A program made the translations under genes and the position numbers. A DNA stretch of 64,000 bases from Desulfobacteraceae bacterium. GTDB taxonomy: Bacteria; Desulfobacterota; Desulfobacteria; Desulfobacterales; Desulfococcaceae. Of this stretch, positions 1,283-23,158 are shown piece after piece (within the stretch, counting starts at the first letter, position 1; each line of letters opens with the position of its first letter). The notes below the pieces were generated by a model. The model was not told the DNA's origin, did not search any database, and saw only the letters and a list, made by a program, of their open reading frames with translations. The stretch spans positions 62,001-126,000 of the forward strand of contig JAABRU010000001.1 of NCBI GenBank assembly GCA_011390755.1. Direction: 5' to 3'.

Positions 1283-1291
1283 GAGGATATC

Positions 1292-2310: not shown

Positions 2311-2352
2311 ATTTGCCAAAGAAGCATACTGTAACATGTTGAGAAAAAGAGT

Positions 2353-2999: not shown

Positions 3000-3025
3000 T
3001 CCGGTTCTGAGAAAGTAAATGTTTT

Positions 3026-3765: not shown

Positions 3766-3778
3766 CAGAAGAGAAAAT

Positions 3779-4096: not shown

Positions 4097-4153
4097 GCAA
4101 TAGTTCGATAACTTTTTATAGTAAATAAATTCAGTGTGATAATGGAGTAACTT

Positions 4154-4747
4154 ATGGGCGAATGGTCAGATTTTTTTGAAGATTTTCCTGAGCATAATCC
4201 AGCGAATTATGTTGGAGATCGTTTTGCACCTCAGGAAGCAAAGCGATTACGAGAGCAAGAAGCTTTATATCATGAACAGCAACGCAGATTAAATTCGGAA
4301 ATTTTTGGATTGATACGAGATTCATTTCTGAAATCTGAGCACAAGAAAAAACTTGCAACAATGGTTTCAGTAGAACGTTGTGTTCAATGTGGTGAAATGA
4401 AAATGTATCTATATCAATTAGATAATTATTTTTTCCGTTGTGAATGTGATAAATGCGGTATTCACGGAAAGGGTAAAACAAAAGAAGCAGCATTAACAGC
4501 AGCATTAACTTTTGCTGAATCACAAAAACAAAAACTCAACGCAATAATGGTATCTGTTGAATATTGTGTTCAATGCGGTGAAATGAAAATGAATGTATAT
4601 CAATTTCATGAGAATTATTTTAGTTGTGAATGCGATGAGTGTGGTATTTATGGAGAGGGTGAAACAAAAGAATCTGCATTAGACCTAGCTGAATCAAGAA
4701 TCGGCGAAGGTTTTGATTGGCGAGAAAAAGACGAATCGGATATTTAA
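4154..4747 (+). CDS. Hypothetical protein with duplicated Cys-rich domain
   Basis: 197 aa, no family recognised. Residues about 1-65 are charged and helical. Two tandem copies of a roughly 60-residue unit follow: C76/C79 with C96-C98-C101, and C138/C141 with C158-C160-C163. Each unit starts with CVQCGEMKM and ends CDxCGIxGxGxTKE. Five cysteines per unit suggest zinc binding or a small ribbon fold. The repeats are also similar at DNA level, pointing to a recent internal duplication. GGAG upstream supports ATG 4154. AT-rich codon use matches the accessory island, not the metabolic genes. Confidence 0.7.
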   Translation: MGEWSDFFEDFPEHNPANYVGDRFAPQEAKRLREQEALYHEQQRRLNSEIFGLIRDSFLKSEHKKKLATMVSVERCVQCGEMKMYLYQLDNYFFRCECDKCGIHGKGKTKEAALTAALTFAESQKQKLNAIMVSVEYCVQCGEMKMNVYQFHENYFSCECDECGIYGEGETKESALDLAESRIGEGFDWREKDESDI

Positions 4748-4756
4748 ATCTAAGTT

Positions 4757-4931
4757 TGTAATGTAACATAGTCTTTGAGAAAGGAGTGCGAAAATTATTT
4801 TTCGCCCACGCTCCGAAGGAGCGTGGGCGGAAGACCGCACCGCCCAACTTTCGCACTCCGGGTTTCTTTGAATAAAATATTAAATATAATCAGCATGAAA
4901 CAGTTTTTCTCAAAGGGTATGTTACATTACA
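4757..4931 (+). repeat. MITE-like element, family A, copy A1
   Basis: 175-bp element bounded by terminal inverted repeats: TGTAATGTAACATAGTCTTT at the left and the inverse of AAAGGGTATGTTACATTACA at the right. Inside is a strong hairpin around CCACGCTCCGAAGGAGCGTGG. Three further copies lie at 21163, 31433 (inverted) and 47024 (truncated). No coding capacity. Confidence 0.85.
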
Positions 4932-5100
4932 GCATTACCTTTTACCTATTCATGCAGCAATCATAAATCAACCATTTAAATTATAACAAAAAATTGTTAT
5001 AATGAAAAAATAGTAACTTATGTTATATATCAATATTTCGGTAATTTTTTCAGAATAAATAAATTCAGTATGTTATAAACTTACGAATGAGATTTCGGAT

Positions 5101-5124
5101 TCGATAATTTAAAAAAATTATCGA
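5101..5124. promoter_or_regulatory. Perfect 10-bp inverted repeat abutting an MNT gene start
   Basis: TCGATAATTT-aaaa-AAATTATCGA, a perfect palindrome ending one base before ATG 5125. Its position directly in front of a toxin-antitoxin pair fits an operator for autoregulation or a translation-blocking hairpin. Function is inferred. Bases 4932-5100 upstream are AT-rich with no gene. Confidence 0.5.
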
Positions 5125-5478
5125 ATGATTATATTAATTATGAAATCTGTCTCCGATAAGGCCGTCCGGCAAAAGGCCATGAAAGAATTGAAAGAACTGC
5201 TGTTCCGTGATTTTCCCGATGATGTGGAGAGAGTGATTCTTTTTGGTTCCCGTGCCAAAGGAAATGCGGGAGAGGGAGCAGATTTTGATATTCTTGTGAT
5301 TCTGAAGAAAATGTATGACTGGAAATTTAAAGACAGGATTTATGACAGAACATGGGAAATTGATTTTAAATACGATATTCTGACAGACATCAGGCTGATT
5401 GCAAAAAATGAACTGGAAACATGCAGGGGGAAGCAGCCCTATATCATGGATGCCATTGAGAATGGTATTGTACTGTGA
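5125..5478 (+). CDS. Nucleotidyltransferase (MNT fold), antitoxin-like
   Basis: 117-aa protein with ILFGSRAKGNAGEGADFDILVIL, a GS...DxD nucleotidyltransferase signature of the GSRARG subtype. The C-terminal half has a third acidic strand (IDFKYDILTD). It is followed, with a 4-nt overlap, by a HEPN-domain gene, the classical MNT/HEPN arrangement. The start could be ATG 5125 or ATG 5140; neither has a clear ribosome site, and the palindrome just upstream would influence initiation. Confidence 0.82.
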   Translation: MIILIMKSVSDKAVRQKAMKELKELLFRDFPDDVERVILFGSRAKGNAGEGADFDILVILKKMYDWKFKDRIYDRTWEIDFKYDILTDIRLIAKNELETCRGKQPYIMDAIENGIVL

Positions 5479-5867
5479 CACTGACAGACGAAGACCGGAA
5501 AAATCTGACAGAAAACTATGTGAACAAAAGTATTTCAACCATTGAGACTGTCCGGTTTCTGATAGAAAACAATCAATTTTCTCTGGCAATCAACCGGATT
5601 TACTATGGTATTTACTATATTCTGTCAGGATTGGGAATTAAATATCATTTCAGAACATCCAAACATGCACAGTTAATCGGATGGTTTAATAAAGAATTTG
5701 TCAAAACCGGAAAAATTCATCCTCAATACAGCAAAATGATACGGAAAGCATTTGAAAACAGGATGCAGGGCGATTACGATGTTTTTACCGTATTTACAAA
5801 AGAAGAAAGTGAACAGGCTTTTGAAGAAATGAAAGCGGTAATAACAGAAATACAAAAACTGATCTGA
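5475..5867 (+). CDS. HEPN-domain protein, partner of the MNT at 5125
   Basis: 130-aa all-helical protein starting at GTG 5475, overlapping the previous stop as GTGA. Recognised as a HEPN domain of the paired-with-nucleotidyltransferase type (COG1895/COG2250): SISTIETVRFLIENNQF, the AINRIYYGIYYI helix, and ENRMQGDYDVF, where R, D and Y occupy the usual position of the loop motif. Predicted toxin or substrate of the neighbouring nucleotidyltransferase. The full R-x4-6-H ribonuclease motif is not obvious, so catalysis is uncertain. Confidence 0.8.
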   Translation: MTLTDEDRKNLTENYVNKSISTIETVRFLIENNQFSLAINRIYYGIYYILSGLGIKYHFRTSKHAQLIGWFNKEFVKTGKIHPQYSKMIRKAFENRMQGDYDVFTVFTKEESEQAFEEMKAVITEIQKLI

Positions 5868-5924
5868 TTTGTTATCAAATTACGGATATAATTTTGTTAA
5901 CCGGACAAACGAAAGGATTAAACA

Positions 5925-7478
5925 ATGGGTAATGTTGCAGACAAGATCGAAGATCTGAAAGAGCGGAAAGCCAGGCTTTTGCAGATGGGCGGTGAAAAGG
6001 CCGTTGCCAAGCATAAAGAAAAAGGAAAGCTGACCGCAAGAGAAAGACTGGATCTTTTTTTTGATCCCGGCACATTCCGGGAAGTGGATATGTTTGTCAC
6101 ACACCGCTGTGTCAATTTCGGCATGGAAAAGGTTGATGTGCCGTCAGACGGTGTTGTTACAGGCTACGGCAAAGTGGAGGGCAGAACCGTTTACGCATTT
6201 GCCCAGGATTTTACCTCACGGGCAGGCAGCCTGGGTGAAATGCATGCAAAAAAAATCTGCAAGGTCATGGATATGGCCCTCAAATCGGGCGCGCCCTTTG
6301 TGGGATTCAATGATTCGGGCGGAGCCAGAATTCAGGAAGGCGTGGATGCCCTTTCCGGATTCGGACAGATTTTCTACCGCAATTCCATTTCCTCCGGCGT
6401 AATTCCCCAGATTTCCGCCATTATGGGAACCACAGCGGGCGGTGCGGTTTACTCCCCGGCCATGACCGATTATATCTTCATGGTCAAAAACACCAGTTTC
6501 ATGTTCATCACCGGCCCACAGGTTATCAAGGCTGTCACGGGTGAGGAAATCAGTTTTGAAGATTTGGGTGGAGCATCCGCTCACAATGAAAAAAGCGGGG
6601 TTTCCCATTTTGCCTGTGAATCCGAGCAGGATGCCATAGACAAAATCAAAAAACTCCTGTCCTATCTGCCGTCCAATAATATGGAGGATCCGCCCATTGT
6701 TGACACCGGCGACAGCCCCAAACGTATGGATGCGGAACTGGATACCATTATCCCGGACAATCCCAACCAGTCTTACAATATGAAGGATGTGATTGCACAT
6801 ATTGTGGACAACGGGGAAATCTTTGAACCCCATGAATACTACGCTCCCAATATTGTCATCTGCTTTGCCCGGCTCAACGGACGCAGCATCGGTATTATTG
6901 CCAATCAGCCCGCGTATATGGGCGGCGCGCTGGACATCAACGCATCAGACAAGGCCTCCCGCTTTATCCGCTTCTGCGATGCCTTCAATATTCCCATGCT
7001 GACCATTGCCGATGTTCCCGGTTATCTGCCCGGCAGCGACCAGGAATGGGGCGGCATTATCCGCCACGGCGCAAAACTGCTCTGGACCTATTCCGAAGCC
7101 ACGGTTCCCAAGCTGCTGCTGGTGACCCGTAAGGACTACGGCGGATCCTATCTGGCCATGTGTTCCAAAGACCTGGGCGCGGATATGGCCCTGGCCTGGC
7201 CCACTGCGGAAATCGCTGTAATGGGAGCTTCGGGTGCGGCCAATATCATTCACGCCAGAGAAATCAAAGCCGCGGATGATCCGGCTGCCAAACGCAAAGA
7301 AAAAATCGCAGAATATGAAGAACTCTTTTCCAATCCCTACCGTGCAGCGGAAAGAGGTTATATTGACGATATTATTGTACCCAGCGAAACCCGGCCCCGG
7401 CTCATTGACGCGCTGGAAGCCCTGTGCAGCAAACGGGAACTCCGTCCGCCCAAGAAACACGGCAATATACCGCTGTAA
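5925..7478 (+). CDS. mmdA: Methylmalonyl-CoA/propionyl-CoA carboxyltransferase 12S-type subunit
   Basis: 517-aa crotonase-fold carboxyltransferase. It transfers the carboxyl group between methylmalonyl-CoA and the biotin carrier (PccB/MmdA/transcarboxylase 12S family). Landmarks: KGKLTARERLDLFFD, the N-half oxyanion segment FNDSGGARIQEG, MGTTAGGAVYSPAMTD, and the C-half NQPAYMGGALDINASDK and KDYGGSYLAM. Ribosome site AAAGGA before ATG 5925. Downstream genes encode a small subunit-like protein and a 5S-plus-biotin polypeptide with no biotin carboxylase. A methylmalonyl-CoA:pyruvate transcarboxylase is therefore the best reading. PccB of a split carboxylase is the alternative. Confidence 0.93.
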   Translation: MGNVADKIEDLKERKARLLQMGGEKAVAKHKEKGKLTARERLDLFFDPGTFREVDMFVTHRCVNFGMEKVDVPSDGVVTGYGKVEGRTVYAFAQDFTSRAGSLGEMHAKKICKVMDMALKSGAPFVGFNDSGGARIQEGVDALSGFGQIFYRNSISSGVIPQISAIMGTTAGGAVYSPAMTDYIFMVKNTSFMFITGPQVIKAVTGEEISFEDLGGASAHNEKSGVSHFACESEQDAIDKIKKLLSYLPSNNMEDPPIVDTGDSPKRMDAELDTIIPDNPNQSYNMKDVIAHIVDNGEIFEPHEYYAPNIVICFARLNGRSIGIIANQPAYMGGALDINASDKASRFIRFCDAFNIPMLTIADVPGYLPGSDQEWGGIIRHGAKLLWTYSEATVPKLLLVTRKDYGGSYLAMCSKDLGADMALAWPTAEIAVMGASGAANIIHAREIKAADDPAAKRKEKIAEYEELFSNPYRAAERGYIDDIIVPSETRPRLIDALEALCSKRELRPPKKHGNIPL

Positions 7479-7483
7479 AAAAG

Positions 7484-7581
7484 TTTCAGGTGACAGGTTT
7501 CAGGTGACAGGTTTCAGGTGACAGGTTTCAGGTGACAGGTTTCAGGTGACAGGTTTCAGGTGACAGGTTTCAGGTGACAGG
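7484..7581 (+). repeat. 14-bp tandem array 1 (about seven units)
   Basis: Unit TTTCAGGTGACAGG repeated about seven times with no spacers, starting six bases after the stop codon of the 12S gene. Followed within eight bases by array 2, whose unit is roughly complementary, so the two together could fold into a long hairpin. Confidence 0.95.
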
Positions 7582-7587
7582 TAAAAA

Positions 7588-7715
7588 CCTGACACCGAAC
7601 CCCTGACACCGAACCCCTGACACCGAACCCCTGACACCGAACCCCTGACACCGAACCCCTGACACCGAACCCCTGACACCGAACACCTGACACCAAACAC
7701 CTGACACCGAACACT
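7588..7715 (+). repeat. 14-bp tandem array 2 (about nine units)
   Basis: Unit CTGACACCGAACCC repeated about nine times, the last units drifting to ACAC variants. The reverse complement shares GGTG.CAGG with array 1. Same 14-bp period in both arrays, which suggests one origin followed by inversion. No gene in 7479-7738. Confidence 0.95.
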
Positions 7716-7738
7716 GATAACTGAAAAAAGGGGTGCAA

Positions 7739-7978
7739 ATGGATAATAAGACTTTGACAGATAAAAAGAAAAGGGTGGCGGCCATTGCCGCGGTGACGAC
7801 CTATATTAAGAGTCAGGAAGAAATGATGGCTGCAATGGCAGCAGCGGATCAGTCTGCCGAAGCTGCCCCGAAACCGGTGGCTCTGCCATCCCTGTGGGGT
7901 GTCAGCGGCCGCCAGGATCTCATGCAGTACCGCAACCTGATGCAGATGAAAGCCTTTCACGGTCTAAGATTTAAATAA
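7739..7978 (+). CDS. Small soluble OadG-tail-like protein of the transcarboxylase locus
   Basis: 79 aa. The N-terminal helix (DKKKRVAAIAAVTTYIKSQ) is followed by an Ala-rich linker and a conserved-looking C-terminus (LWGVSGRQDLMQYRNLMQM). This ending is reminiscent of the tail of decarboxylase gamma subunits (OadG/MmdD), which assemble the alpha subunit with its partners, but the usual N-terminal membrane helix is absent. Purine-rich AAAAAAGGGG precedes it; ATG 7739 chosen over GTG 7733. Sits between the 12S-type and 5S-type genes, so a structural or assembly subunit of the transcarboxylase is inferred. Confidence 0.7.
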   Translation: MDNKTLTDKKKRVAAIAAVTTYIKSQEEMMAAMAAADQSAEAAPKPVALPSLWGVSGRQDLMQYRNLMQMKAFHGLRFK

Positions 7979-8037
7979 TACATCGTTATTTTATATTTTA
8001 ACATAATGTTTTAACCATTTTACAGGGAGAATCAAAT

Positions 8038-10062
8038 ATGAGCGATCAAGTAACCATGACCGAAATGAATTACGGCCCGGACAGACCGACTGCCAAAAAT
8101 CCGGTAAAAGTGATGGATTTGTCTCTGCGGGACGGGCATCAGTCCCTTTTTGCCACCCGCGGACGCACCGAAGACATGATTCCCGTGGCCGAACTGATGG
8201 ATGAAGTCGGTTTCTGGGCAATTGAAACCTGGGGCGGTGCCACCTTTGACACCATGCACCGCTTTCTTAATGAAGATCCCTGGGAACGGCTCCGCACCCT
8301 GAAACGCTATATCAAAAAGACCCCCTTTTCCATGCTGCTCCGGGCGCAGAACCTGGTGGGCTACCGCAATTATGCCGATGATCTGGCCGAAGTATTTGTG
8401 GAAAGAGCCGCGGAAAACGGCATGGATGTCTTCCGCACCTTTGACGCGCTCAATGACTACCGCAATTTTGAAACCGTAGTCAAAGGCATCAAAAAAGCCG
8501 GAAAACATTTCCAGGGCTGTATCTGCTACACCATGACCGAACCCCGTCTGGGCGGCGAGGTCTATAATCTGGATTATTATATCAATAAAGCCAAAGACCT
8601 GGAATCCATGGGTGCGGACAGTATCTGTATCAAAGATATGGCCGGTCTGATTGCTCCCTATGATGCATACAAACTCATCAAAGCCCTGAAAGAATCGGTC
8701 AAACCGCCCATTCATCTGCACAGTCATTTCACCTCCGGCATGTCTCCCATGAGTCATCTCAAAGCCATTGAGGCCGGTGTGGATATTGTGGATACCTGCA
8801 TGACCCCCTATGCCTACCGCACCTCCCATGCGGCTGTGGAGCCTTTGGTCATGGCTCTTCTGGGAACCAACCGGGACACCGGCTTTGATATTAAAAAACT
8901 GGCTGTCATCAATGAGATTCTTGAAAAAGAGGTCATGCCCAAATACAAACACCTGCTGGATGACAGCAAGGTTTCTGTTATTGACATTAACGTGCTGCTG
9001 CACCAGACACCCGGCGGAATGCTCTCCAACCTGGTCAACCAGCTTCGGGAAATGGATGCTTTGGACAAAATCGGTGAAGTTTACAAAGAACTTCCCAGGG
9101 TACGGAAGGATCTGGGGCAGATTCCCCTGGTTACACCCACCAGCCAGATTGTGGGGATTCAGACCGTCAACAACGTGCTCTTTGACGATGAAAATGAGCG
9201 TTACAAAATGATTACCGGTCAGGTGAAGGACCTTTGTTACGGTCTGTACGGAAAAACAGCAGTTCCCATCAATCCCGAAGTGCAGAAAAAGGCCCTCAAA
9301 GGTTATGCCAGAGGCGAGGAACCCATTAGCTGCCGTCCCGCGGAAGTGCTGGAACCTGAACTGGAAAAAGCCAAAGCCGAAATCGGCGATCTGGCCAAAG
9401 ATATTGATGATGTGGTGCTCTACGCCATCTACCCCGTAACCGGAAAGAAATTCCTGAAATGGAAATACGGTGTGGAAGCTCCGCCCAAAGAAGTGCTGCC
9501 CAGAACGATGGAGGATGTGAAAAAACAGGATGAGCTTATCAAAAAAGCCAAAGCCGGAAAACTGTATGAAAAGAAAGAAGCTCCGGAAAAAGGCGAAGCC
9601 ACCCGTACCTTCAACGTCTTTATTGACGGCGATTTCTTTGAAGTGGATGTGGATGAACCGGGCGGCGCTCCGGTCATTGCCTACCAGGCTCCGGCTGCAT
9701 CTGCTGCCGCACCGGCACCCGCAGGTGCTCCTGCTCCGGCCGCAGCGCCCAAACCGGCGGCTCCGGCTGCCCCCAAACCGGCCGCACCGAAACCGGCCGC
9801 CCCCAAAGCCGCCGCAGCACCTGCCCCGGCCGCCGCAGCCAATGTGGACGGAACACCCCTGAATGCCCCCATGCCCGGTATGATCGTGGATTTCAAGAAA
9901 AATGTGGGGGACAGTGTGGAAAAAGGCGAAACCGTCGTCATTCTCGAAGCCATGAAGATGGAAAACGCACTTCCGGCCCCGGTCGGCGGAACCATCAAAG
10001 CCATCAATTTTGCCAGCGGGGATTCTGTTGCCAAAAATGCAGTTCTCTGCGTAATCGGATAA
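8038..10062 (+). CDS. Transcarboxylase 5S / pyruvate carboxylase subunit B fused to biotin carrier domain
   Basis: 674 aa. Residues about 18-290 form an HMGL-like TIM barrel (DLSLRDGHQSLFATRGRT, metal-site HLHSHFTSG). About 300-500 is the conserved carboxylase (PYC_OADA) domain. About 540-600 is an Ala/Pro/Lys linker, and the C-terminus is a biotinyl domain with the EAMKMEN motif, biotin-accepting lysine K640. It carboxylates pyruvate to oxaloacetate from carboxybiotin. With the 12S subunit this gives methylmalonyl-CoA + pyruvate <-> propionyl-CoA + oxaloacetate. No biotin carboxylase gene is nearby. The 5S and 1.3S parts, separate in Propionibacterium, are fused here. Confidence 0.93.
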   Translation: MSDQVTMTEMNYGPDRPTAKNPVKVMDLSLRDGHQSLFATRGRTEDMIPVAELMDEVGFWAIETWGGATFDTMHRFLNEDPWERLRTLKRYIKKTPFSMLLRAQNLVGYRNYADDLAEVFVERAAENGMDVFRTFDALNDYRNFETVVKGIKKAGKHFQGCICYTMTEPRLGGEVYNLDYYINKAKDLESMGADSICIKDMAGLIAPYDAYKLIKALKESVKPPIHLHSHFTSGMSPMSHLKAIEAGVDIVDTCMTPYAYRTSHAAVEPLVMALLGTNRDTGFDIKKLAVINEILEKEVMPKYKHLLDDSKVSVIDINVLLHQTPGGMLSNLVNQLREMDALDKIGEVYKELPRVRKDLGQIPLVTPTSQIVGIQTVNNVLFDDENERYKMITGQVKDLCYGLYGKTAVPINPEVQKKALKGYARGEEPISCRPAEVLEPELEKAKAEIGDLAKDIDDVVLYAIYPVTGKKFLKWKYGVEAPPKEVLPRTMEDVKKQDELIKKAKAGKLYEKKEAPEKGEATRTFNVFIDGDFFEVDVDEPGGAPVIAYQAPAASAAAPAPAGAPAPAAAPKPAAPAAPKPAAPKPAAPKAAAAPAPAAAANVDGTPLNAPMPGMIVDFKKNVGDSVEKGETVVILEAMKMENALPAPVGGTIKAINFASGDSVAKNAVLCVIG

Positions 10063-10084
10063 ATCCTTCGTTCCTCCTCCCCGG

Positions 10085-10122
10085 CAGGGGAAGACCGGAA
10101 ATGCCGGCCCGGTCTTCCCCTG
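10085..10122 (+). terminator. Hairpin after the 5S/biotin gene
   Basis: CAGGGGAAGACCGG pairs perfectly with CCGGTCTTCCCCTG about 20 nt after the stop codon. There is no clean U tract, so it may be a processing or stability hairpin, or a weak terminator. Confidence 0.6.
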
Positions 10123-10148
10123 TTACAAAGAGATGAGTAATGCGTAGG

Positions 10149-10211
10149 GTGGGCACGGTTTTTTGTGCCCACCATAGATGAGTAGGTCGGGTTAGCGAAG
10201 CGTAACCCGAC
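10149..10211. repeat. Two adjacent short palindromes (REP-like)
   Basis: First hairpin GGTGGGCAC...GTGCCCACC (10149-10173), second GTCGGGTTAGCG..CGTAACCCGAC (10186-10211). Both types are common intergenic palindromes in unrelated bacteria. They fill the gap between the carboxylase gene and sucC. Confidence 0.7.
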
Positions 10212-10314
10212 ATTTCAGAAAAAAATGTTGCTAATTTTCAGAAACCGGAAATCAATATATATCCTCCTGAATTCTGACTCCTGAATTCAGAATTCTTTAT
10301 AATAAGGAAATACC

Positions 10315-11478
10315 ATGAAAATCCATGAATATCAGGCAAAAGAGTTATTCAGAAAACACAATGTGGCTGTTCCCGACGGCGGCCCGGCTTTTACCGTGGA
10401 AGAAGCCAAAGCCCTGGCTGAAAAACTGGGGTCCTTCCCGGTTGTCGTCAAAGCCCAGATCCATGCAGGCGGACGCGGCAAGGGCGGCGGCGTGAAAGTG
10501 GCCAAAAACATGGCCGAATTTGAAAAATACGCCAGCGAAATTCTGGGCATGACCCTGGTGACCAAACAGACCGGCCCTGAAGGCAGACTGGTGAAAAAAC
10601 TGCTTGTCGAACAGGGACTCAATATTGCCAAAGAACTGTACCTGAGCATCCTTCCGGACCGGGCCACAGCCAAAATGGTCATCATGGCCAGCGAAGCGGG
10701 CGGTATGGATATTGAGGAAGTCGCGGAAGCCACACCCGAAAAAATCATCAAGGTCTATGTGGATCCCATGGCCGGTCTCCAGGCCTATCATCTGCGGGAT
10801 GCGGCCTTCGGTCTCAATATCCCCGCAGCAGCCCAGAAAGCCTTCATGGGTCTGCTGAAAAACCTCTTCAACTTCTGCGTCAGCTATGACTGCTCCATGG
10901 TGGAAATCAATCCCCTGGTACTGACCGCAGAAAACAATGTGCTCGCACTGGATGCCAAGGTGGATTTCGACTCCAACGCCCTTTACCGTCATAAAGACGT
11001 GGTGGAATACCGCGATCTGGACGAGGAGGATCCCAATGAGGTGGAAGCCTCCAAATTCGGTCTCAATTATATCCAGCTGGGCAGCGGCAATGTGGGCAAT
11101 ATGGTCAACGGCGCGGGCCTTGCAATGGCAACAATGGACTGCATCAATTTGGCGGGCGGCAATCCGGTCAACTTCCTGGATGTCGGGGGCGGAGCCAGTG
11201 CCGAGCAGATTGAAAACGGTTTCCGCATTCTCCAGAGTGATCCCGAAGTCAAAGCCATCCTCATCAATATTTTCGGCGGCATCCTCCGATGCGACCGCCT
11301 GGCCAACGGTGTGGTGCAGGCCGCGGAAAAAGTCGGCCTGAGAGTGCCGGTCATCATCCGCATGGAAGGCACCAACCTGGCAGAAGGAAAGAAAATTCTG
11401 GCTGATTCCGGTCTGGATCTTATCAATGCTGCGGATCTCAAAGATGCGGCCGAAAAGCTCAAAGCAGCCATTCAGTAA
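10315..11478 (+). CDS. sucC: Succinate--CoA ligase (ADP-forming) beta subunit
   Basis: 387 aa, full length. ATP-grasp N-terminus starting [17 protein letters not shown], with [18 protein letters not shown] as nucleotide-binding region, [10 protein letters not shown], and the C-terminal CoA-ligase domain with [14 protein letters not shown] and [10 protein letters not shown]. Together with sucD it interconverts succinyl-CoA and succinate with ATP or GTP formation, linking the methylmalonyl-CoA branch to the citric-acid-cycle acids. Followed by sucD after 26 bp. Confidence 0.97.
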
Positions 11479-11504
11479 CCCATATTGAAAAAGAGGATAA
11501 TAAA

Positions 11505-12380
11505 GTGAGCATACTTGTCAATAAAGACACGAAACTGTTGGTCCAGGGAATTACAGGAAAAGAAGGGCAGTTCCACACCCGTGCCTGCGTGGAATACGGC
11601 ACAAATGTGGTGGCCGGTGTGACACCGGGCAAGGGCGGCCAGAAAATGGATGAAATCCCGGTGTTCAATACCGTGAAGGATGCGGTAAAGACCACGGGCG
11701 CAGATGCCAGCATGATTTTTGTTCCGCCCCCCTTTGCCGCAGATGCGATTATGGAAGCCACGGACGCGGAAGTTCCCCTGATCGTATGCATTACCGAGGG
11801 CATTCCGGTCATGGACATGATGAAGGTGAAAAACTATATCAAGGGCAAACCCGTGCGCCTCATCGGTCCCAACTGCCCCGGTATCATCACACCGGGCGAA
11901 TGCAAAATCGGCATTATGCCGGCCGTGATCCACAAACCCGGAAAAATCGGTGTGGTTTCCCGCTCCGGAACCCTCACCTATGAAGCCGTCCACGCACTGA
12001 CCCTGGCGGGACTGGGCCAGACCACCTGTATCGGTATCGGCGGAGACCCGGTCAACGGAACCAATTTCATTGACTGCCTCAGCCGCTTCAAAGACGACCC
12101 GGCCACCAAAGGTATCGTCATGATCGGTGAAATCGGCGGTTCCGCAGAGGAAGAGGCCGCGGATTATATCAAAGTCAATGTGAAAAAGCCGGTGGTGGGA
12201 TTCATCGCGGGACTCACCGCACCTCCGGGACGCCGCATGGGCCACGCGGGCGCCATCATCAGCGGCAACAGCGGCACCGGCCAGAGCAAAGTGGCCGCCA
12301 TGAAAGCCAACGGCATCAGCGTATGCGAAAACCTGGCCTATCTCAAAGATGTCTGCCAGGAGACATTTGCAAACGTGTAA
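11505..12380 (+). CDS. sucD: Succinate--CoA ligase alpha subunit
   Basis: 291 aa, GTG start at 11505 with AGAGGA upstream. Rossmann CoA-binding N-terminus ([21 protein letters not shown]), [13 protein letters not shown], the phospho-histidine segment GHAGAIISG and the ending [11 protein letters not shown]. The 3' third of this gene reappears at 19915-20222. Short sucD-like pieces recur in repeats at 23011 and 29938. Confidence 0.97.
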
Positions 12381-12409
12381 TCAGAATAAAAATCTCTCCT
12401 TTCAATAAC

Positions 12410-12446
12410 AAAGCGGCATGGGAAATCTTTTCCCAGCCGCTTTTTT
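12410..12446 (+). terminator. Rho-independent terminator of sucCD
   Basis: Stem AAAGCGGC-a-TGGGAAA with TTTCCCA-GCCGCTTT and a run of six T, 30 nt after the sucD stop codon. Confidence 0.9.
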
Positions 12447-12638
12447 GTCCTGACCGTAAGATGCAAACCTGAAGTTCTTCGGCCCCTTGCCAAAAAAGAT
12501 AAATAATGTTAAAAGATTGTTTCGTATTATTGTCATCAGGAGAGGACGCACATATCCGAAGCATATTTCCAATGTATTTAAATTCCTGCTTCTGAATATC
12601 TTGATTCATGAAACCGAAACAGTGAAAGGCGGGAAACC

Positions 12639-12884
12639 ATGCAGACAGTTATTTCCATTCGCGATGAACTGGTACAAAGAGTCCGGCAGGCAACATTGCT
12701 GACGCATTTTAAAAATATGGGAGAATTTGTGGAGTTTCTGATTGAAGAAAAGATAAAAGAAACGGAAAATCAGAAAAACGATCCCATATTCCGGATGCGC
12801 GGAATGCTGAAAGGCAAAATCGGAGGAACAGAGTTGTTTATGCAGGATAAACAGTCTGAAATTCAGAAGGAATATGCCGGATGA
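12639..12884 (+). CDS. VapB-like antitoxin of a PIN-domain pair
   Basis: 81-aa protein with an N-terminal DNA-binding-like segment (TVISIRDELVQRVRQA...NMGEFVEFLIEEKI), resembling ribbon-helix-helix antitoxins, and a charged toxin-binding C-terminus. The next gene overlaps it by 4 nt (ATGA) and encodes a PIN nuclease, the standard VapBC arrangement. No clear family beyond this could be assigned. Confidence 0.75.
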   Translation: MQTVISIRDELVQRVRQATLLTHFKNMGEFVEFLIEEKIKETENQKNDPIFRMRGMLKGKIGGTELFMQDKQSEIQKEYAG

Positions 12885-13294
12885 ACATTTTTGTCATTGA
12901 TGCCTGTACGTTGATTGCATATCTGTTTGATGAAAAAGGAGCAGATATTTTTGAACGTATGCTGATTCAGGCCCGTCATAATGAAATCAGGCTGGTGATG
13001 CACGCCGTCAATCTGGGAGAAGTGTATTACGATATTCTCAAGCGGAACGACTATGCAACCGCCCAACTGACATATCGCAGCATCAGGCAGTTGCCAATCC
13101 GGTTTGAAGATCGGATTGATGATCCCATGATTTTCAAAGTCGGTGAATTGAAAAGTTCATACCGCATTTCCTATGCCGATGCCTTTGCATCAGCCCATAC
13201 CCTGCTTCTGAATGCCCGCCTGATTACAACAGATCATAAGGAATTTGAACCGCTGGAAAAGGCTGAAGTCCTTTCAGTTTTTTGGTTGCGTTAA
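12881..13294 (+). CDS. VapC-like PIN-domain ribonuclease toxin
   Basis: 137-aa PIN domain. Acidic active-site candidates are Asp7 in VIDACTLIAYLF, the Glu in NLGEVYYDI, the Asp in ISYADAFASAHT and the Asp in RLITTDHKEFE. Such enzymes cleave tRNA or rRNA. Coupled to the upstream antitoxin gene. Its stop codon lies 14 bp from the convergent end of the dynamin operon, so the toxin pair borders that cluster. Confidence 0.88.
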   Translation: MNIFVIDACTLIAYLFDEKGADIFERMLIQARHNEIRLVMHAVNLGEVYYDILKRNDYATAQLTYRSIRQLPIRFEDRIDDPMIFKVGELKSSYRISYADAFASAHTLLLNARLITTDHKEFEPLEKAEVLSVFWLR

Positions 13295-13307
13295 AAAACA
13301 ATATTTC

Positions 13308-15116
13308 TTACCCCATCTGCCGAAGCATATCATTCAGTGCATTGACCAGCGGAGCATGCTCCTGTTTCACAGCTTCACTGCCTGTTTTCTTTTTCTCCCG
13401 TTCCGATACGGCTTCAGCATGTTTCCGCTGTATTTCGCTGAGCATGGATTCCTTTGACTTTTCCAGATATGCCAAAGCCTGATCCCGAATCAATGAGAGA
13501 GATGTTCCCTGATTCTCATCTCTGCCGTAAACAGCTCGGTGAGAAGCATCTTTGATCAGTTGAACTGCCTGTTCTTTCATGGCATTCACTTTTTTGCGTT
13601 TGGCAAAATACATTCCGCCGATAAGAGCAACCGGTATCAGAATCCCTCCGGATGCCAATGCCGCTCCCATTGAGAAAACCGCTCCTGTGGAAATACCGGT
13701 AAGAGAAGCCAGTGCTGCTGAACCCAACAGTGTGGGAGTACTCATCAGAGAACCCATCAGCACTGCGCCGCCCACACCAGATATAACTCCGGCTCCGGCA
13801 TAACCCGCACCGGAACCTTCTGTTTCCTTCAGATGCAGAGCGCTTCGGAGACTGTCCTGATACATGCCGAATGTGGTATTGTTGAATGTGTTAAGCATCT
13901 CCTGACAGGAACAGGCATATGCCTCAATACTTTTGGCAATGGACTTACCCGTATCCTCAGCAGCGGTTTTTATCAGATCCGTATCATTCATCTGAAGAAT
14001 CCTTTCGATCCTTTCTTTTGCCAGACTCTCAATTTCAGATGTCCTCCTGTAACAAATCCCGTTAATCTCATTTCTTGTTCGGGCAAGGGTATCATTGCAT
14101 TTGCGTTCAAGAGATTTCATTTCTGTTTCCAATGAACTGACGAGTTCATCCATCTCTGATGCTTCCCTGTTCACAATGCTCATCTGATAGTCAATATCTG
14201 CAAGAGATTTCTGAATTCCTTGTGTGAGTTGCTGCCGAATAACGGGAAGCCTGATGGCATTTTTGCTGTTTTTCAGCAGGTCAGCAAAAATTCTCTCTCG
14301 GCATTCACGTATTTTTGATTTCTCAATTTCTGCCGGTCTGTTCTCCTCTTCACCGCAAAGCGCAGTCCATGCACTGAGGGATAAAATCCGTTCACGGGGA
14401 AGCCCTGTATTTTTCTGAACATATTCAATGTAACCGGCCAGTTCTTTGTCATTGAATTCAGTCTGATCAATTTTGTTGACAAGAATGCTGAACCAGCGTT
14501 TTTTCTCCCGCACCAGTTCGAAAAGGGTTTTATCAGTCCTTCCGTAGGGCGGCTGGGTTGCAAGAACCAGAAGAAATCCGTCTCCTTTGTTTATGGCATC
14601 CAGCATTTCCTGATCATGCCGTTCAATAACAGAATCAAATCCGGGTGTATCCTGAAGAATCAGTCCGTCTTTCAGATATTGCGAAGGATAGTGAACACGC
14701 AGCATTTTCCGGGCTTGGGAAGACGGATTATCCTGTGGGATATTCAGTTCCGTACCCCATTCACGGACAATATTTCTGGCTTCCGTGAGATCGGGGCAGC
14801 GAAACTGACGGATCACATTGCCTCCGGTATCCAGAATCTCCACCCTGATAGGATCACCGTAGCAAATCTCTGTCAGAAGCGAGGTTGTCGGGGTAAGGTC
14901 TTCCGGCAGCAGACGCACACCAAGCAGGGCATTGATGACGGCTGACTTGCCCCGCGAAAATCCTCCGCATACCATCAGCCGGAATATGTCTGACTTCAAT
15001 TCCAGACGGGCATTCTGAATCAGTTGCAACAATTCTTCCGGAGCCCTGTTTTGTTTCAGCACTTTTTCATGTTCTGACAGCACCCTTGAAAAATCAGACA
15101 GTTCTGAAGATATCAT
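13308..15116 (-). CDS. Dynamin-like GTPase 1 (last gene of DLP operon)
   Basis: 602-aa dynamin-family protein. G1 GGFSRGKS (residues 51-58), putative G2 Thr around 75-78, G3 DTPG (156-159), G4 NKID (214-217). A helical stalk-like region (about 290-430) contains a coiled coil, a long hydrophobic Gly/Ala/Ser-rich stretch (about 437-505) looks like a membrane hairpin, and a charged helical C-terminus follows. This layout matches bacterial dynamin-like proteins (BDLP, DynA, LeoA) that remodel or fuse membranes. Start ATG overlaps the stop of the TerB-like gene by 4 nt. Substrate membrane and role unknown. Confidence 0.88.
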   Translation of the reverse strand: MISSELSDFSRVLSEHEKVLKQNRAPEELLQLIQNARLELKSDIFRLMVCGGFSRGKSAVINALLGVRLLPEDLTPTTSLLTEICYGDPIRVEILDTGGNVIRQFRCPDLTEARNIVREWGTELNIPQDNPSSQARKMLRVHYPSQYLKDGLILQDTPGFDSVIERHDQEMLDAINKGDGFLLVLATQPPYGRTDKTLFELVREKKRWFSILVNKIDQTEFNDKELAGYIEYVQKNTGLPRERILSLSAWTALCGEEENRPAEIEKSKIRECRERIFADLLKNSKNAIRLPVIRQQLTQGIQKSLADIDYQMSIVNREASEMDELVSSLETEMKSLERKCNDTLARTRNEINGICYRRTSEIESLAKERIERILQMNDTDLIKTAAEDTGKSIAKSIEAYACSCQEMLNTFNNTTFGMYQDSLRSALHLKETEGSGAGYAGAGVISGVGGAVLMGSLMSTPTLLGSAALASLTGISTGAVFSMGAALASGGILIPVALIGGMYFAKRKKVNAMKEQAVQLIKDASHRAVYGRDENQGTSLSLIRDQALAYLEKSKESMLSEIQRKHAEAVSEREKKKTGSEAVKQEHAPLVNALNDMLRQMG

Positions 15117-15541
15117 GATTCCGCTCCTTCATGAATAAGCTGTTCACCTTTGTCCTGCCATGCCTGCCCTTCCTGCGCCCATTGTGTAAAGCGATCTGCC
15201 AGTTCTTCTGATATGCCCAGATTCATCCGGACAGACTCCAGCATGAGACGTTCCAGCGGATGAAAAATCCGGTCTGCAAATGCCATGATCACGCAGTCTC
15301 TGAAAATGGTGCGTCTGAGTGTTTCCGGACGGACAGATTTCAGGAGTTTCACACACGAGGGCTCATCTTTTGCCATTGCCAAAATCCGCTCTGCCTCTGC
15401 ACGGTCAATTCCCATCGCCTCTCTGACCTGTTCAAGGAATTTGAGTTCCTCATCAGCAAGCACCTGATCTGACAAAGCAATCAGACTCAGTGCCAGAAAA
15501 TACATTTTGCTTTCCTCATCCGTCCAATCTCCTGTTTTCAT
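15113..15541 (-). CDS. TerB-like (tellurite-resistance TerB fold) protein
   Basis: 142-aa helical protein. Acidic, metal-binding-like helices typical of the TerB fold: LIALSDQVLADEELKFLEQV and the second half FADRIFHPLERLMLESV. TerB-like domains often serve as Ca-binding or membrane-associated scaffold modules in stress and phage-response islands. Here the gene is wedged between two dynamin-like GTPase genes with 4-nt overlaps on both sides. A partner or regulator of the GTPases is therefore inferred. Confidence 0.78.
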   Translation of the reverse strand: MKTGDWTDEESKMYFLALSLIALSDQVLADEELKFLEQVREAMGIDRAEAERILAMAKDEPSCVKLLKSVRPETLRRTIFRDCVIMAFADRIFHPLERLMLESVRMNLGISEELADRFTQWAQEGQAWQDKGEQLIHEGAES

Positions 15542-17427
15542 AACATCTCCTTTTGCACATAGGTTTCAATTTCCATTAAACGGTTGCGGATAATCCCAAT
15601 TTCATTTTCCGCATGGCTCAGTTCTTCAATCCGCTTTTCAAAATTCCCTTCGGCAAGTTGGCGTTCAGCCTCTGCCAGTCCTTTGTCTATGGGGTCAACC
15701 ATTATCCGAAAGTTTTCCCAGACCAGTTTTTCGCCATCCGATTTTATGGTTCGGATGTTTTCTGCAAACTTATTCTTTACAGATTCAATTATTTGGGGAA
15801 TACTTGTGAACAGTTCATTTCGAAATTTCTCTTTGAGACTGCCAAGAGCTTTCACAGTTCCCCATATACCTGTTCCGAGACCTACTGCAATAAGTCCCCA
15901 TCCCAACGGATTCCAAAGGTTTGCTGTTCCGCCCGCAAGAGCTGCCCACGCTGTCCTGATCCAGCCAATTGAAAGACTGTAACCGAGGAGACTTGCACCG
16001 CCTGTTATGATTGTCGCCCCTGCAAAAGCCCCTTTCAAAAAGTTAAAACCGCTTATATCCACTCGGATAAACTCAAAATGAAACTGACAGTCTTCTGAAA
16101 ATTTAATCAGAAGCTGCTCCAGATTGCTTGCCAGATCTTTCATTGCCGGAATTGCTTTTTCACCTAAACTTCGGTTAACCGCGTTTAAAATATCCTCTTT
16201 GAACATGTTCTCTGTCTCGGATTGAATTTCGGTCAGTCTCTTTTTCACAGCCAATATATCCCTGAAGCCGATTTCACTTATCCGTTTGGTGATATAATTC
16301 TCTGTTTTGCTTTTTATTTCAGCACACAGTCCGGCAAATTGCGGTTCACAGAGTTCCATGCTCCTGAGAAATAATTGACATTCTCTGTCAAGGTTTTTTC
16401 TCAGTTTTTCTTTCTCTTCCACCCATCGGATTTTTTCACTTGTGAGATCTTTCAACTGCCTGTTCAGGGCGGATTTTTCCGTTTGCATCTGATTTGTAAA
16501 CTGTCCCAGTTCACCTGCTGCTGCCCTCATACCGGATCGGATGGCTTCGGCTCCCCGCTGTTTTTCAAGATATTTTCTGAGTTCTGTCTCCAGACGGGGA
16601 AATCCGGAAGCATTGCTGATGGGCGTATTGCTGATCAGTGATTCCAAAGCGAATTTGGAAGAAATGCAGAACACCGCATCCGGGGTAAGTTTGCTGAACT
16701 TTCCAAATTCGCGGATGACATTGATATTGTACTCCACACCGCGTCTGAGCTGATCCTCTGCGGAATCTCCTGTCACCGGATCATGGTTCACCGCATCCAC
16801 CTTGTTCATGACAAAAAAAATCCGCTCCGTGCCTTCCTCACTGATACGCTTGAGCAAATCAAACTCTCCTCTGCATATGGGAAGTTCTGCGGTAAAAACA
16901 TACAGTATCGCATCCGCTTTTGGAATAAATTCGTAAACAATTTCATCATGGTAAGCATTGACAGAACCTTCACCGGGTGTATCCACAATAATCACACCGT
17001 CTTTTAGCCAGTCTGACTGATATTCCACCATAATACGGGACACATTTTTCTCATTGCCGGGGTTTTGCTCCTCTGTGCAGAATTCCGCTATTGTTTCAAG
17101 CGGATGTATCTGATTTTGCCCGTTTTTGAAATATACTGTAATCTGCTCTTTTTCCCCGTGCTGAACAGAAACAATTGCGGAACTGACAGGTATCAGTCCT
17201 GTGGGCATAAGTTTCGGATTACGAAGCAGTGCATTCACAAATGAGGATTTTCCCCGTTTCAACTGCCCCATTACCGCAACCTGAAATTTGTTTTCATGGA
17301 GTTTTTTCTTGGCAAAGCCGATATTTTTCACAGCTTCCGCACGTCCGTTTTTCTCCATCAGTTTTTCAGCCCGTTCCATAACCGGTATCAGCCGTTCCTT
17401 TGCCTGGTAATATGACTCCAAAAGCAT
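15538..17427 (-). CDS. Dynamin-like GTPase 2
   Basis: 629 aa. G1 GQLKRGKS (54-61), G3 DTPG (149-152), G4 NKVD (208-211). A long helical region (about 300-450) is followed by a hydrophobic, Gly/Trp-rich membrane segment (about 462-525) and a coiled-coil tail. Clearly a paralogue-type dynamin-like protein, but only distantly similar to its two neighbours outside the GTPase motifs, so not a recent duplicate. Overlaps the TerB-like gene by 4 nt. Predicted to tubulate or fuse membranes with DLP1 and DLP3. Confidence 0.88.
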   Translation of the reverse strand: MLLESYYQAKERLIPVMERAEKLMEKNGRAEAVKNIGFAKKKLHENKFQVAVMGQLKRGKSSFVNALLRNPKLMPTGLIPVSSAIVSVQHGEKEQITVYFKNGQNQIHPLETIAEFCTEEQNPGNEKNVSRIMVEYQSDWLKDGVIIVDTPGEGSVNAYHDEIVYEFIPKADAILYVFTAELPICRGEFDLLKRISEEGTERIFFVMNKVDAVNHDPVTGDSAEDQLRRGVEYNINVIREFGKFSKLTPDAVFCISSKFALESLISNTPISNASGFPRLETELRKYLEKQRGAEAIRSGMRAAAGELGQFTNQMQTEKSALNRQLKDLTSEKIRWVEEKEKLRKNLDRECQLFLRSMELCEPQFAGLCAEIKSKTENYITKRISEIGFRDILAVKKRLTEIQSETENMFKEDILNAVNRSLGEKAIPAMKDLASNLEQLLIKFSEDCQFHFEFIRVDISGFNFLKGAFAGATIITGGASLLGYSLSIGWIRTAWAALAGGTANLWNPLGWGLIAVGLGTGIWGTVKALGSLKEKFRNELFTSIPQIIESVKNKFAENIRTIKSDGEKLVWENFRIMVDPIDKGLAEAERQLAEGNFEKRIEELSHAENEIGIIRNRLMEIETYVQKEML

Positions 17428-17511
17428 AAAGTTTCCTCCTATGTCTATCTTTTTGCTTTGATTGAATATGCTGCTGAAATTCCAATCTGTTCCGACTATC
17501 TTGCGGCCCGC

Positions 17512-19260
17512 TTACGGAGCATAAAATGAAGACATATCCGTCAATTCCCGGATTTTTGCCAAATCTCTGCGGATTTCCTCTGCCTTTGTCCCGGTTTTGG
17601 GTTCATTGAAACTGAGCATCAGATTTCTGACAGACTGTTCCACCATATCCAGATTGGCATCATAATCTGCCATATTCTCTGTAAGACGGCTTTGAAACCT
17701 GTTCATCAAATCCTCGGAAAAACGCTGATACAGGCTTTGCTGGATTTCTTCGAGTTTTTGGCAGACCTGATCCGCAAAATCCGATTTTACTTTTGAAGGG
17801 TTGGCAATAAGCGACAGAACTGCGGATTTGATTGTGTCTCCTGCATAATGTGTTGCCAGCAGGAGCAGAAGGAAATTCATCATACCCAGAAAAACCCATC
17901 CGCCGATCAGCAGACCCGGTATGACAAAACTGTCATTCCGGTATATCTGGGGCAGAATCGCTGTCAGATTGGCTGTTCCGTGCCGCAGAAGCGAACTGAA
18001 CTGCGCCTCGGTATCTTCATTCCATTCCTCAAACACCTCATCCAGCAGAGGAGAAATCTTTCGTGCCTCCCGCTCCATAAAGCATTTCATTTGCAGGTTT
18101 ACACCGGATTGCAGTTCAGAGGCAAGTCCGGGGTCTTTCAAATCATCCATGCTCAGCATCATAATGGCGGTGCGGAGTTTGGAAGAATACCGGGAGATGA
18201 AATCTGCAAGACTTCCCTGAAATTTTAAAAGAATATCTTCCACTTTGCGCCGGGCTTTCTTATCAATCTCCACCATCTTTTCCTGTATCCGGGTGCGATC
18301 CTTTTGCAGGGTTTCTATACGCGTCTGCAATTCCTCTTTGGATTCGGAAAGTGATTTCAATTGTGTTTCAAGTCCTGAACCCACAGCACGGGCAAGGTTT
18401 CCGAAATCCCGCATCATGGAATTCACCACCGCTGATCCGGCTTCTTTTTCGACATAATCCGTCAGTGCCTGCCGAAGTTCCGGAATTCCGCTTGGAAAAT
18501 CTGTTTCTGCTCCCTGCATAATCTTTTGCAGTTCATTTCGGGAAGAAACGACAAAGACACGCTGATGATCTGTGAAGGCTTTGACAACAGCGTTTATATA
18601 TCCAAGCAACTGCTCCACACCTTTCTGTTCGCCGACTTTGTCACTTTTGTTCATTGCAAAAAATATTTTCCCGGTATGTGTGGAAAACACCTGTGTGGCA
18701 AGAAATTCTTTTTCGCTGGCATCAATTCCCCCGGATTCCGTATCCAGCACCACAACCAGCGCATCAACCTGGGGGATCACTGTGTTAACCACTTCGGAAC
18801 GGATTTCATCCACATCCGCAAAACCGGGGGTATCCACAAGGCGCAGCCCTGTTTTCAAAAACTGTGACGGGAGAGTCACCTCCGCTTTTCGGGCATTTGC
18901 AAGTTTTCCGCAGGAAATGCTTTCCCGGAGTTTTTGCCGGGACACATGGGACAGGTGTCCCTGTTTATCCATAATAACGGCATCCTCTTTGTCGCCGTAA
19001 CGCACAAGCACATTGCACACACTGGCAGGCAGAATGTCCGAGGGAAGCAGAGGTTCACCGACAAGCGCATTGATCAGGCTGGATTTGCCTTTTTTCACTT
19101 TCCCGACAAATGCAATGGTCAGATCATGCTGTTTTCTGCGTTCCTGAATTTTCTGAAACCGGGATTCCGCGTGAGTGAATCCCCATTTGTTTGCAACAGC
19201 CTGCAACTCTGAAGCACGCTGTCCGATTTCATCCATGCGTTCTTTGTACATCTCAAACAT
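17512..19260 (-). CDS. Dynamin-like GTPase 3
   Basis: 582 aa. GGGAGG just upstream selects ATG 19260 rather than the longer frame from 19290. G1 GKVKKGKS (53-60), G3 DTPG (143-146), G4 NKSD (204-207). Coiled-coil region about 300-350. A single strong hydrophobic segment (about 444-470: IPGLLIGGWVFLGMMNF...) differs from the double segments of DLP1 and DLP2. Ends 84 bp upstream of DLP2. Together the three proteins form a heterotypic set, as in tandem bacterial dynamins that work in pairs. Confidence 0.87.
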   Translation of the reverse strand: MFEMYKERMDEIGQRASELQAVANKWGFTHAESRFQKIQERRKQHDLTIAFVGKVKKGKSSLINALVGEPLLPSDILPASVCNVLVRYGDKEDAVIMDKQGHLSHVSRQKLRESISCGKLANARKAEVTLPSQFLKTGLRLVDTPGFADVDEIRSEVVNTVIPQVDALVVVLDTESGGIDASEKEFLATQVFSTHTGKIFFAMNKSDKVGEQKGVEQLLGYINAVVKAFTDHQRVFVVSSRNELQKIMQGAETDFPSGIPELRQALTDYVEKEAGSAVVNSMMRDFGNLARAVGSGLETQLKSLSESKEELQTRIETLQKDRTRIQEKMVEIDKKARRKVEDILLKFQGSLADFISRYSSKLRTAIMMLSMDDLKDPGLASELQSGVNLQMKCFMEREARKISPLLDEVFEEWNEDTEAQFSSLLRHGTANLTAILPQIYRNDSFVIPGLLIGGWVFLGMMNFLLLLLATHYAGDTIKSAVLSLIANPSKVKSDFADQVCQKLEEIQQSLYQRFSEDLMNRFQSRLTENMADYDANLDMVEQSVRNLMLSFNEPKTGTKAEEIRRDLAKIRELTDMSSFYAP

Positions 19261-19283
19261 ACAGCCTCCCTTGTAAGATAAAA

Positions 19284-19691
19284 TCAGCAAAGTTCCGGGA
19301 AAAAGAAACGGTTGGCAGTTTCTGTTCTGTCTTCAGCACGAATTTGCGGCTCAGCAGTTTTGGCATAGTCACCCCTTTGAAATTTATCCAGTTCACTGCT
19401 GATATACGGTATCAGAAACGTGGCAACGACAATGTCATCTACAGGCCCCAACAAAGGATCAGGAATAACGATCCACATGATTCCCCCCAAAATCAATGCT
19501 CTTTTGGATAAGGGAACCTGCGATGACAGAAGATAGTCCTTTAATCCTGTCCATTTTTGGATAAGAGAGGAATAACGGGGTTGGTTGACAATTTTCTGAT
19601 GAAGTGAATCCAGTTTGCTGCTGACCGTCACGGAATTCTGCTGAAGAATTTCGCGGGCTTCATCCTTTGCCTGCTTTGGAATCTGAGACAT
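19284..19691 (-). CDS. DUF1232 (YkvA-type) membrane protein, first gene of DLP operon
   Basis: 135 aa. AAGGAGA upstream selects ATG 19691. The N-terminal half is helical; the C-terminal half holds the DUF1232 signature with LILGGIMWIVIPDPLLGPVDD followed by a hydrophobic VATFLIPYI, so one or two membrane-associated helices. DUF1232 proteins are small inner-membrane proteins of unknown role. The stop codon is 23 bp before DLP3, on the same strand, suggesting co-transcription and perhaps a membrane anchor for the GTPases. Confidence 0.82.
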   Translation of the reverse strand: MSQIPKQAKDEAREILQQNSVTVSSKLDSLHQKIVNQPRYSSLIQKWTGLKDYLLSSQVPLSKRALILGGIMWIVIPDPLLGPVDDIVVATFLIPYISSELDKFQRGDYAKTAEPQIRAEDRTETANRFFFPELC

Positions 19692-19914
19692 GGGTTTCTC
19701 CTTTTCTTTTTCTGATTGCCTGTGTATCTCTGCCACATCCTGCGGATGAGAAAATTTTTCCGCATACGGGATTTCAGCCGGAATTCAGAAATAATACCGA
19801 TAACCAACCGAACCATTGAGTATTTTCTCATTTTTATAGTTATATATTGGCTCTGTGGCAAAGTCAAATCAGAATGAGCAAAGAAGTAAAAGAAATTCGA
19901 TAGCATCTTTACGG

Positions 19915-20222
19915 ATTGCCTGAGCCGCTTCAAAGACGACCCGGCCACCAAAGGCATTGTTATGATTGGCGAAATCGGCGGATCTGCGGAAGAAGAAGCC
20001 GCGGATTATATCAAAGCCAATGTGAAAAAACCGGTGGTGGGATTCATCGCGAGACTCACCGCACCTCCGGGACGCCGCATGGGCCACGCAGGCGCCATCA
20101 TCAGCGGCAACAGCGGAACCGGCCAGAGCAAAGTGGCCGCCATGAAAGCCAACGGCATCAGCGTATGCGAAAACCTGGCCTATCTCAAAGATGTCTGCCA
20201 GGAGACATTCGCAAACGTGTAA
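19915..20222 (+). pseudogene. Partial copy of sucD (3' third)
   Basis: Matches sucD from about 12077 to its stop codon. ATG 19962 to 20222 is still an open frame of 86 codons with only two amino-acid changes visible (V to A, G to R). The last 190 bp differ at about 4 positions from sucD, while the preceding 85 bp differ at about 12, mostly silently. Lacks the CoA-binding domain, so not functional as a ligase subunit. Confidence 0.9.
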
Positions 20223-21399: not shown

Positions 21400-21492
21400 A
21401 CATTTTTGCTCGTTACCGGTTTCTGCCCGGTAACTCCGATCAGGAGGCAGAGCCTCTCCTGATGCGTTACGAGGCGGAGCCTCGTAACGAGT
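21400..21492 (+). repeat. GC-rich palindrome block, family K (copy without sucD part)
   Basis: Three palindromes in a row: GTTACCGG...CCGGTAAC, ATCAGGAGGCAGAG/CTCTCCTGAT and CGTTACGAGGCGGAGCCTCG-TAACG. Same module as at 23011 and 29938. Lies upstream of the DUF900 gene, whose leader it would form. No gene in 20979-21526. Confidence 0.75.
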
Positions 21493-23010: not shown

Positions 23011-23158
23011 TCTCGTTACGAGGCTCTGCCTCGTAACGAGTCAAAGCTTGTCAATAAATACACAAACCCCTTATCACACCGGGCCAATGCAAAACCGTAT
23101 GCGAAAACCCGGCCTGTCTCAAAGATGTATCTTTGCAACCGTTTAAATTTTATGAAAA
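23011..23158 (+). repeat. Compound repeat K + internally deleted sucD, copy 2
   Basis: Begins with the palindrome CGTTACGAGGCTCTGCCTCG, then a stretch like the 5' end of sucD (CTTGTCAATAAATACACAAA versus CTTGTCAATAAAGACACGAA). It then jumps to the 3' end (GTATGCGAAAACCCGGCCTG, CTCAAAGATGTAT, TTTGCAACCGTTTAA). The same junctions occur in the copy at 29938, so the unit moved after the deletion formed. Confidence 0.75.

Follow-up and report, generated by a model that had tools for sequence, protein, structure and literature searches.

A five-gene operon encoding three divergent dynamin-like GTPases and a TerB-like protein in a Desulfobacteraceae genome

Introduction

Bacterial dynamin-like proteins (DLPs) mostly come as operon pairs, for which heterotypic assembly is considered fundamental (PMC6104087); those that have been published act as heterotypic pairs (PMC6104087, PMC4159319). 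The window analysed here, a 64,000-nt stretch from a Desulfobacteraceae bacterium (contig JAABRU010000001.1, positions 62,001 to 126,000), includes five minus-strand ORFs at 13308-19691, three of which encode complete, mutually distant dynamins. Together with unrelated three-dynamin operons on plasmids, the locus makes the existence of higher-order dynamin hetero-oligomers in bacteria testable. The same applies to a direct part of TerB-like proteins in remodelling membranes, and to the spread of these operons as cargo for defence or envelope repair.

Results and discussion

Arrangement of the operon

The operon and the features on either side of it are as follows.

12072..12380, plus strand: 3' end of the intact sucD gene, left copy of a flanking direct repeat (sequence comparison)
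12639..12884, plus strand: antitoxin-like gene (Pfam DUF2281, just under the cut-off, 24.3 vs 26.5)
12881..13294, plus strand: VapC-like PIN toxin gene (Pfam PIN 1.9e-13, above the cut-off)
13308..15116, minus strand: DLPa, dynamin-like GTPase, 602 aa (Pfam Dynamin_N 2.2e-19, motifs, hydropathy)
15113..15541, minus strand: TerB-like helical protein, 142 aa (Pfam TerB 1.1e-7; PDB 2ou3, E 0.003)
15538..17427, minus strand: DLPb, dynamin-like GTPase, 629 aa (Dynamin_N 8.7e-29; AlphaFold fold matches)
17512..19260, minus strand: DLPc, dynamin-like GTPase, 582 aa (Dynamin_N 3.1e-21; fold matches to BDLP and IniA)
19284..19691, minus strand: hydrophobic-hairpin protein, 135 aa (hydropathy; without a PF06803 profile match)
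19914..20222, plus strand: second 3' end of sucD, 5'-truncated, right copy of the direct repeat (94% identical)

In the direction of transcription, the order is hairpin protein, DLPc, DLPb, TerB-like protein and DLPa, with intergenic distances of 23, 84, -4 and -4 nt, the TerB-like gene overlapping both DLPb upstream and DLPa downstream by 4 nt. These ORF coordinates and overlaps are as an earlier, sequence-only reading of the same DNA had claimed. All five starts are preceded by a strong Shine-Dalgarno sequence (AAGGAG, GGGAGG, GGAGG, AAGGAG and AAGGAG, in the same order), and the start of DLPc is best set at the ATG at 19260, which follows GGGAGG. A sequence scan of the 84-nt gap between DLPc and DLPb found no minus-strand terminator-like site; the numbers of promoters and terminators predicted in the operon region were close to those in shuffled sequence and carry little weight. 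As judged by this layout, the five genes form one operon, a linkage that rests on one genome.

Three complete dynamin-like GTPases

A Dynamin_N domain was found by Pfam in each of the three GTPases, and G1, G3 (DTPG) and G4 (NKxD) are intact in all of them, DLPa having GGFSRGKS, DTPG and NKID. Inspection of the motifs thus agrees with the previous description of each GTPase, and all three are full-length Dynamin_N proteins. On the strength of this domain and its G1, G3 and G4 motifs, DLPa, DLPb and DLPc are classed as bacterial dynamin-like proteins. In an alignment with relatives, which nearly always have Thr at the G2 position, this residue is Thr in DLPa and Ser in DLPb and DLPc, a substitution that could mean weak hydrolysis.

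The claim that each GTPase has a different hydrophobic membrane part needs correction for DLPb. Hydropathy placed a hydrophobic segment at about residues 440-505 of DLPa and a hydrophobic hairpin near residues 443-474 of DLPc, but the membrane segment of DLPb is only mildly hydrophobic, with no window of 19 residues above 1.5.

In the AlphaFold models of DLPb (pLDDT 78) and DLPc (pLDDT 70), the G domain is followed by a helical neck or trunk with a membrane-contact tip, the tips being poorly resolved and of low confidence. The best fold matches found for them by Foldseek were BDLP (2j68/2j69 for DLPb), IniA, Cj-DLP1/2, SynDLP and mitofusins, and DLPb is the closest to BDLP among the three GTPases. 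The TM-scores were low, as expected for hinged molecules, and establish only the overall type of fold, so that DLPb and DLPc are modelled as dynamin-type proteins of the BDLP/IniA/mitofusin-like kind.

The mutual identity of DLPa, DLPb and DLPc, calculated from a joint alignment over the alignment length, is 18-24%, which rules out a recent tandem duplication. In a tree of G domains with 92 rows, each of the three lay on a long branch with no supported partner; in a reduced tree, DLPb and DLPc grouped together with weak support (80), and a topology test on this tree did not reject a single origin for all three (p-AU 0.53). An ancient duplication may lie behind them. These results also bear on a reading in which three dynamin genes have accreted by chance as neighbours, with no joint function. 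The 84-nt gap between DLPc and DLPb and the lack of a conserved neighbourhood elsewhere would suit such accretion, but the overlaps on either side of the TerB-like gene, the common strand, the Shine-Dalgarno sequence at each start and the absence of a terminator speak against it, as do the weakly supported grouping of DLPb with DLPc and the single origin that the topology test did not reject. Mere accretion is therefore considered highly improbable.

Small accessory proteins

The gene between DLPb and DLPa had been called TerB-like, and its product indeed scores above the gathering threshold of Pfam PF05099 (32.6 vs 24.4 bits). Only three other homologues, all weak, were found in the class sample. 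One of these is encoded in the same genome on another contig (C168), with no dynamin gene within its 2-kb locus.

The 135-aa protein encoded by the first gene includes a hydrophobic hairpin and a P-D-(x)n-G-x-x-DD motif resembling DUF1232, and had been labelled a DUF1232 membrane protein. That label is withdrawn: the Pfam scan gave no match to PF06803 (DUF1232) for this protein, and a search of the whole genome with the profile gave none either, although the same profile finds DUF1232 proteins in four relatives. What remains is a visual likeness of the motif. No homologue of the hairpin protein was detected in 379 genomes of the class.

The segment between the sucD repeats

A segment of 7.8 kb is taken up by the operon and the VapBC-type pair convergent with it; it is flanked by a direct repeat that the sequence-only reading had missed. 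The repeat consists of the last 309 bp of sucD, and no other long copy of this sucD end is present in the genome. A VapBC pair beside the operon had been noted correctly: the PIN toxin gene, which ends 13 bp from the stop of DLPa, is preceded by the antitoxin-like gene, overlapping it by 4 nt, and the DUF2281 match of the latter falls just below the cut-off.

The two copies of the repeat differ mostly in a synonymous manner. Sixteen of the 18 differing codons are synonymous and 16 of the 18 differences lie at third codon positions (P ~2e-6 under equal positions), which indicates that both sucD ends evolved in working genes. Hence, simple duplication in place followed by neutral decay is unlikely, and the pattern fits a second sucD end that would be a xenologous or once-functional copy. 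Two further sucD relics lie downstream, at 23047-23128 and 30055-30160. Both are compact and have an identical make-up, with three collinear sucD pieces that come from its start, its middle and its 3' end; they share internal deletions, and a REP-like palindrome (GAGGC..GCCTCGTAACGAG) precedes each. These relics are older than the flanking repeat. REP-like palindromic repeats were recorded at 21460-21491, 23012-23043 and 29941-30050, and occur in tens of copies genome-wide (45 among the matches listed, most of ~35 bp).

The operon is absent beside sucD in five relatives of the family; within the 5-6 kb examined there, the genes after sucD showed no detected homology to those of the window and no sucD relics were seen. 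The GC3 of the operon genes is 0.44-0.49, compared with 0.58-0.69 for sucC, sucD and the neighbours at 8038-10062, though low GC3 also occurs in some window genes outside the island (MacB, 0.47). Taken together, the sucD repeats, the lower GC3 of the operon and its absence beside sucD in relatives support acquisition of the segment, at a site that has undergone repeated rearrangement. Operon and VapBC-type pair were thus probably acquired and inserted beside sucD as one 7.8-kb segment. A 181-bp stretch at the right edge has no further copies in the genome, which speaks against an insertion sequence there, and no recombinase gene was identified.

Elsewhere in the window, positions 992-5867 hold a cluster of toxin-antitoxin-like and related genes (a Gp49/HI1420 pair, a nucleotidyltransferase, XisH and HEPN), and this stretch includes a region of low GC (0.35-0.38 at 2001-6000).

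Distribution of the gene set

The five-gene set was found in none of the collections searched, namely the class (389 and 379 genomes), the phylum (395 genomes), a contig collection of 84,980 species, plasmids, phages and IMG/VR, where scoring in the large GTPase samples was limited to three candidates per genome and the scan of contigs relied on short conserved peptide patterns. Among 50 loci drawn from the collection of 84,980 species, none matches the set either. DLPb has a match in 33 of the 389 class genomes, this genome included, and DLPc has matches in the same genomes. The relatives of DLPb in the class are 25-38% identical to it and are arranged singly, in pairs and once as a quadruple, with no homologue of the accessory genes detected beside them. 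Overall, relatives of the GTPases share 20-35% identity and are mostly single or paired genes; by sequence, they are distant homologues and not orthologues.

The conserved co-occurrence that a shared machine might leave in other genomes was hence not found in those searched, and as the set is conserved nowhere among them, co-evolution lends no support to a multi-dynamin machine. Homologues scattered singly among related genomes had been named beforehand as evidence against the proposal. Formally such scatter is what was observed, but the homologues are too distant either to prove or to exclude joint function.

At least three further dynamin genes are present in the same genome, a pair of long genes on contig C39, which is conserved in a relative of the family, and one on contig C115. 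In another genome of the same bacterial order, a single locus (L063, positions 5616-15064) contains four genes for dynamin-like GTPases, all on the same strand, and an Hsp70-like gene lies between them; a sigma-factor-like gene is located upstream of the group.

The number of dynamin genes suggests another reading, in which a bacterium with a large genome uses many dynamins and the operon has a housekeeping role in membrane traffic or the cell envelope, such as vesicle release, division or internal membranes. The links of LeoABC and IniA to vesicles and membrane fission would also be in line with this. However, the conserved C39 pair already suits such a role, and the operon is missing from the five family relatives and located in a variable insert. 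A housekeeping role is accordingly regarded as unlikely.

Possible function of the operon

The literature on heterotypic DLP pairs, on vesicle release by leo genes and on delayed lysis by DynA makes it most likely that the three GTPases form a hetero-oligomer. The leo genes promote vesicle release, and their deletion halves vesicle cargo (PMC4159319), while DynA of B. subtilis delays phage lysis (PMC8844932). The reading preferred here, to which we would give an even chance, is a hetero-oligomeric machine for membrane tethering or sealing that is equipped with an adaptor and an anchor and serves envelope protection as accessory cargo. DLPa, DLPb and DLPc would assemble at the cytoplasmic membrane, on its inner side, where GTP-driven hinge movements and membrane-inserting tips may tether, cluster or seal membrane that is damaged or budding. 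The TerB-like protein, whose translation is presumably coupled to that of DLPb and DLPa on either side, would serve as a soluble adaptor or regulator, and the small hairpin protein would provide a membrane anchor or a landing site. The cell would gain protection of its envelope under stress, which may extend to a delay of lysis in phage infection.

In favour of such a machine are the Dynamin_N domains and their motifs, the coupled layout, the fold matches of DLPb and DLPc to BDLP, IniA and Cj-DLP1/2, the hydrophobic segments of the hairpin protein and of two GTPases, DLPa and DLPc, and independent three-DLP operons with small partners on plasmids. Against it stand the failure to find an orthologous operon, the Ser at G2 in DLPb and DLPc, and the lack of a strongly hydrophobic segment in DLPb. 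A heterotrimeric membrane-remodelling machine had been the proposal of the sequence-only reading. Its core, a multi-dynamin system with accessory proteins, is still the most natural reading, but the heterotrimer is conjectural and the anchor had been wrongly assigned to DUF1232. On this analysis envelope protection appears the most likely role, and phage defence is its main rival.

Comparison with known systems

BDLP1/BDLP2 of Nostoc, Cj-DLP1/2 of Campylobacter, IniA/IniC and DynA/DynB are, like the proteins described here, Dynamin_N GTPases with a long helical trunk encoded by adjacent genes in one operon. They comprise two GTPases, whereas the present operon has three complete ones together with the TerB-like and hairpin genes. 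In structural alignments, DLPb and DLPc are ~15-20% identical to the BDLP, IniA and Cj-DLP structures. The TerB-like protein belongs by score with the TerB family (PF05099), but its gene sits inside a dynamin operon.

LeoABC/Eleos, the three-gene case already described, resembles the locus in being a multi-gene dynamin operon on mobile DNA. LeoB and LeoC represent one dynamin split in two, such that LeoABC amounts to two dynamins (PMC4159319); LeoA with a split or fused LeoBC thus differs from three full-length dynamins with accessory genes. The PADLOC LeoA/LeoBC profiles match all three GTPases (4.5e-29 for DLPb with LeoBC). However, they match non-Leo plasmid DLPs comparably, hence these matches are generic and not specific, and with the NCBIfam LeoA model NF041922 the GTPases reach 24.8-29 bits against a cut-off of 325 bits. 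Given this wide shortfall, the generic profile matches and the three complete dynamins, membership in LeoABC/Eleos was rejected.

The same scores count on both sides of the view that the operon, on a mobile insert, is dedicated to defence against phages in the manner of Eleos/LeoABC or of DynA. The profile matches, the toxin-antitoxin pair with the flanking repeats, the effect of DynA on lysis and the location of plasmid three-DLP operons near Abi genes would be in its favour. The equal scores of non-Leo proteins and the distance from the LeoA cut-off are not, the wider neighbourhood in the window is not a classical defence island, and no defence gene other than the toxin-antitoxin pair was demonstrated beside the operon. 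Dedicated defence is for these reasons held to be doubtful, and envelope protection is retained as the favoured role.

Unrelated operons, each comprising three dynamin genes that are all complete, occur on the Bacillota plasmids pFN9A and pFN9B of Lysinibacillus capsici and pART37 of Paenibacillus; no name for these operons was found in the literature searched. In pART37, a gene for a 207-aa coiled-coil protein lies between the first and second dynamin genes, and the annotation of this plasmid region includes a phage abortive infection protein. Three dynamin-family genes are also present on a plasmid of E. albertii. Like the present locus, the plasmid operons combine three dynamin genes and small partner genes in one operon. 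They differ in their GTPases, which at ~20-31% identity over parts of the sequence are as distant as any others, and in their partners, which among those scanned are coiled-coil or unknown proteins, with neither TerB nor a hairpin protein.

The statement that no described system has this gene set can hence be kept for the exact set but not for the kind: the operon is real and unusual and its exact composition is unmatched in the collections searched, yet three-dynamin operons as such exist on plasmids. It may be speculated, with considerable reserve, that they represent a recurrent, unnamed class of mobile modules for envelope protection or defence, built on an obligate GTPase hetero-oligomer whose small partners are swapped between lineages. 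The operon described here, with the TerB-like protein as adaptor and the hairpin protein as anchor, would then be a type of its own within that class.
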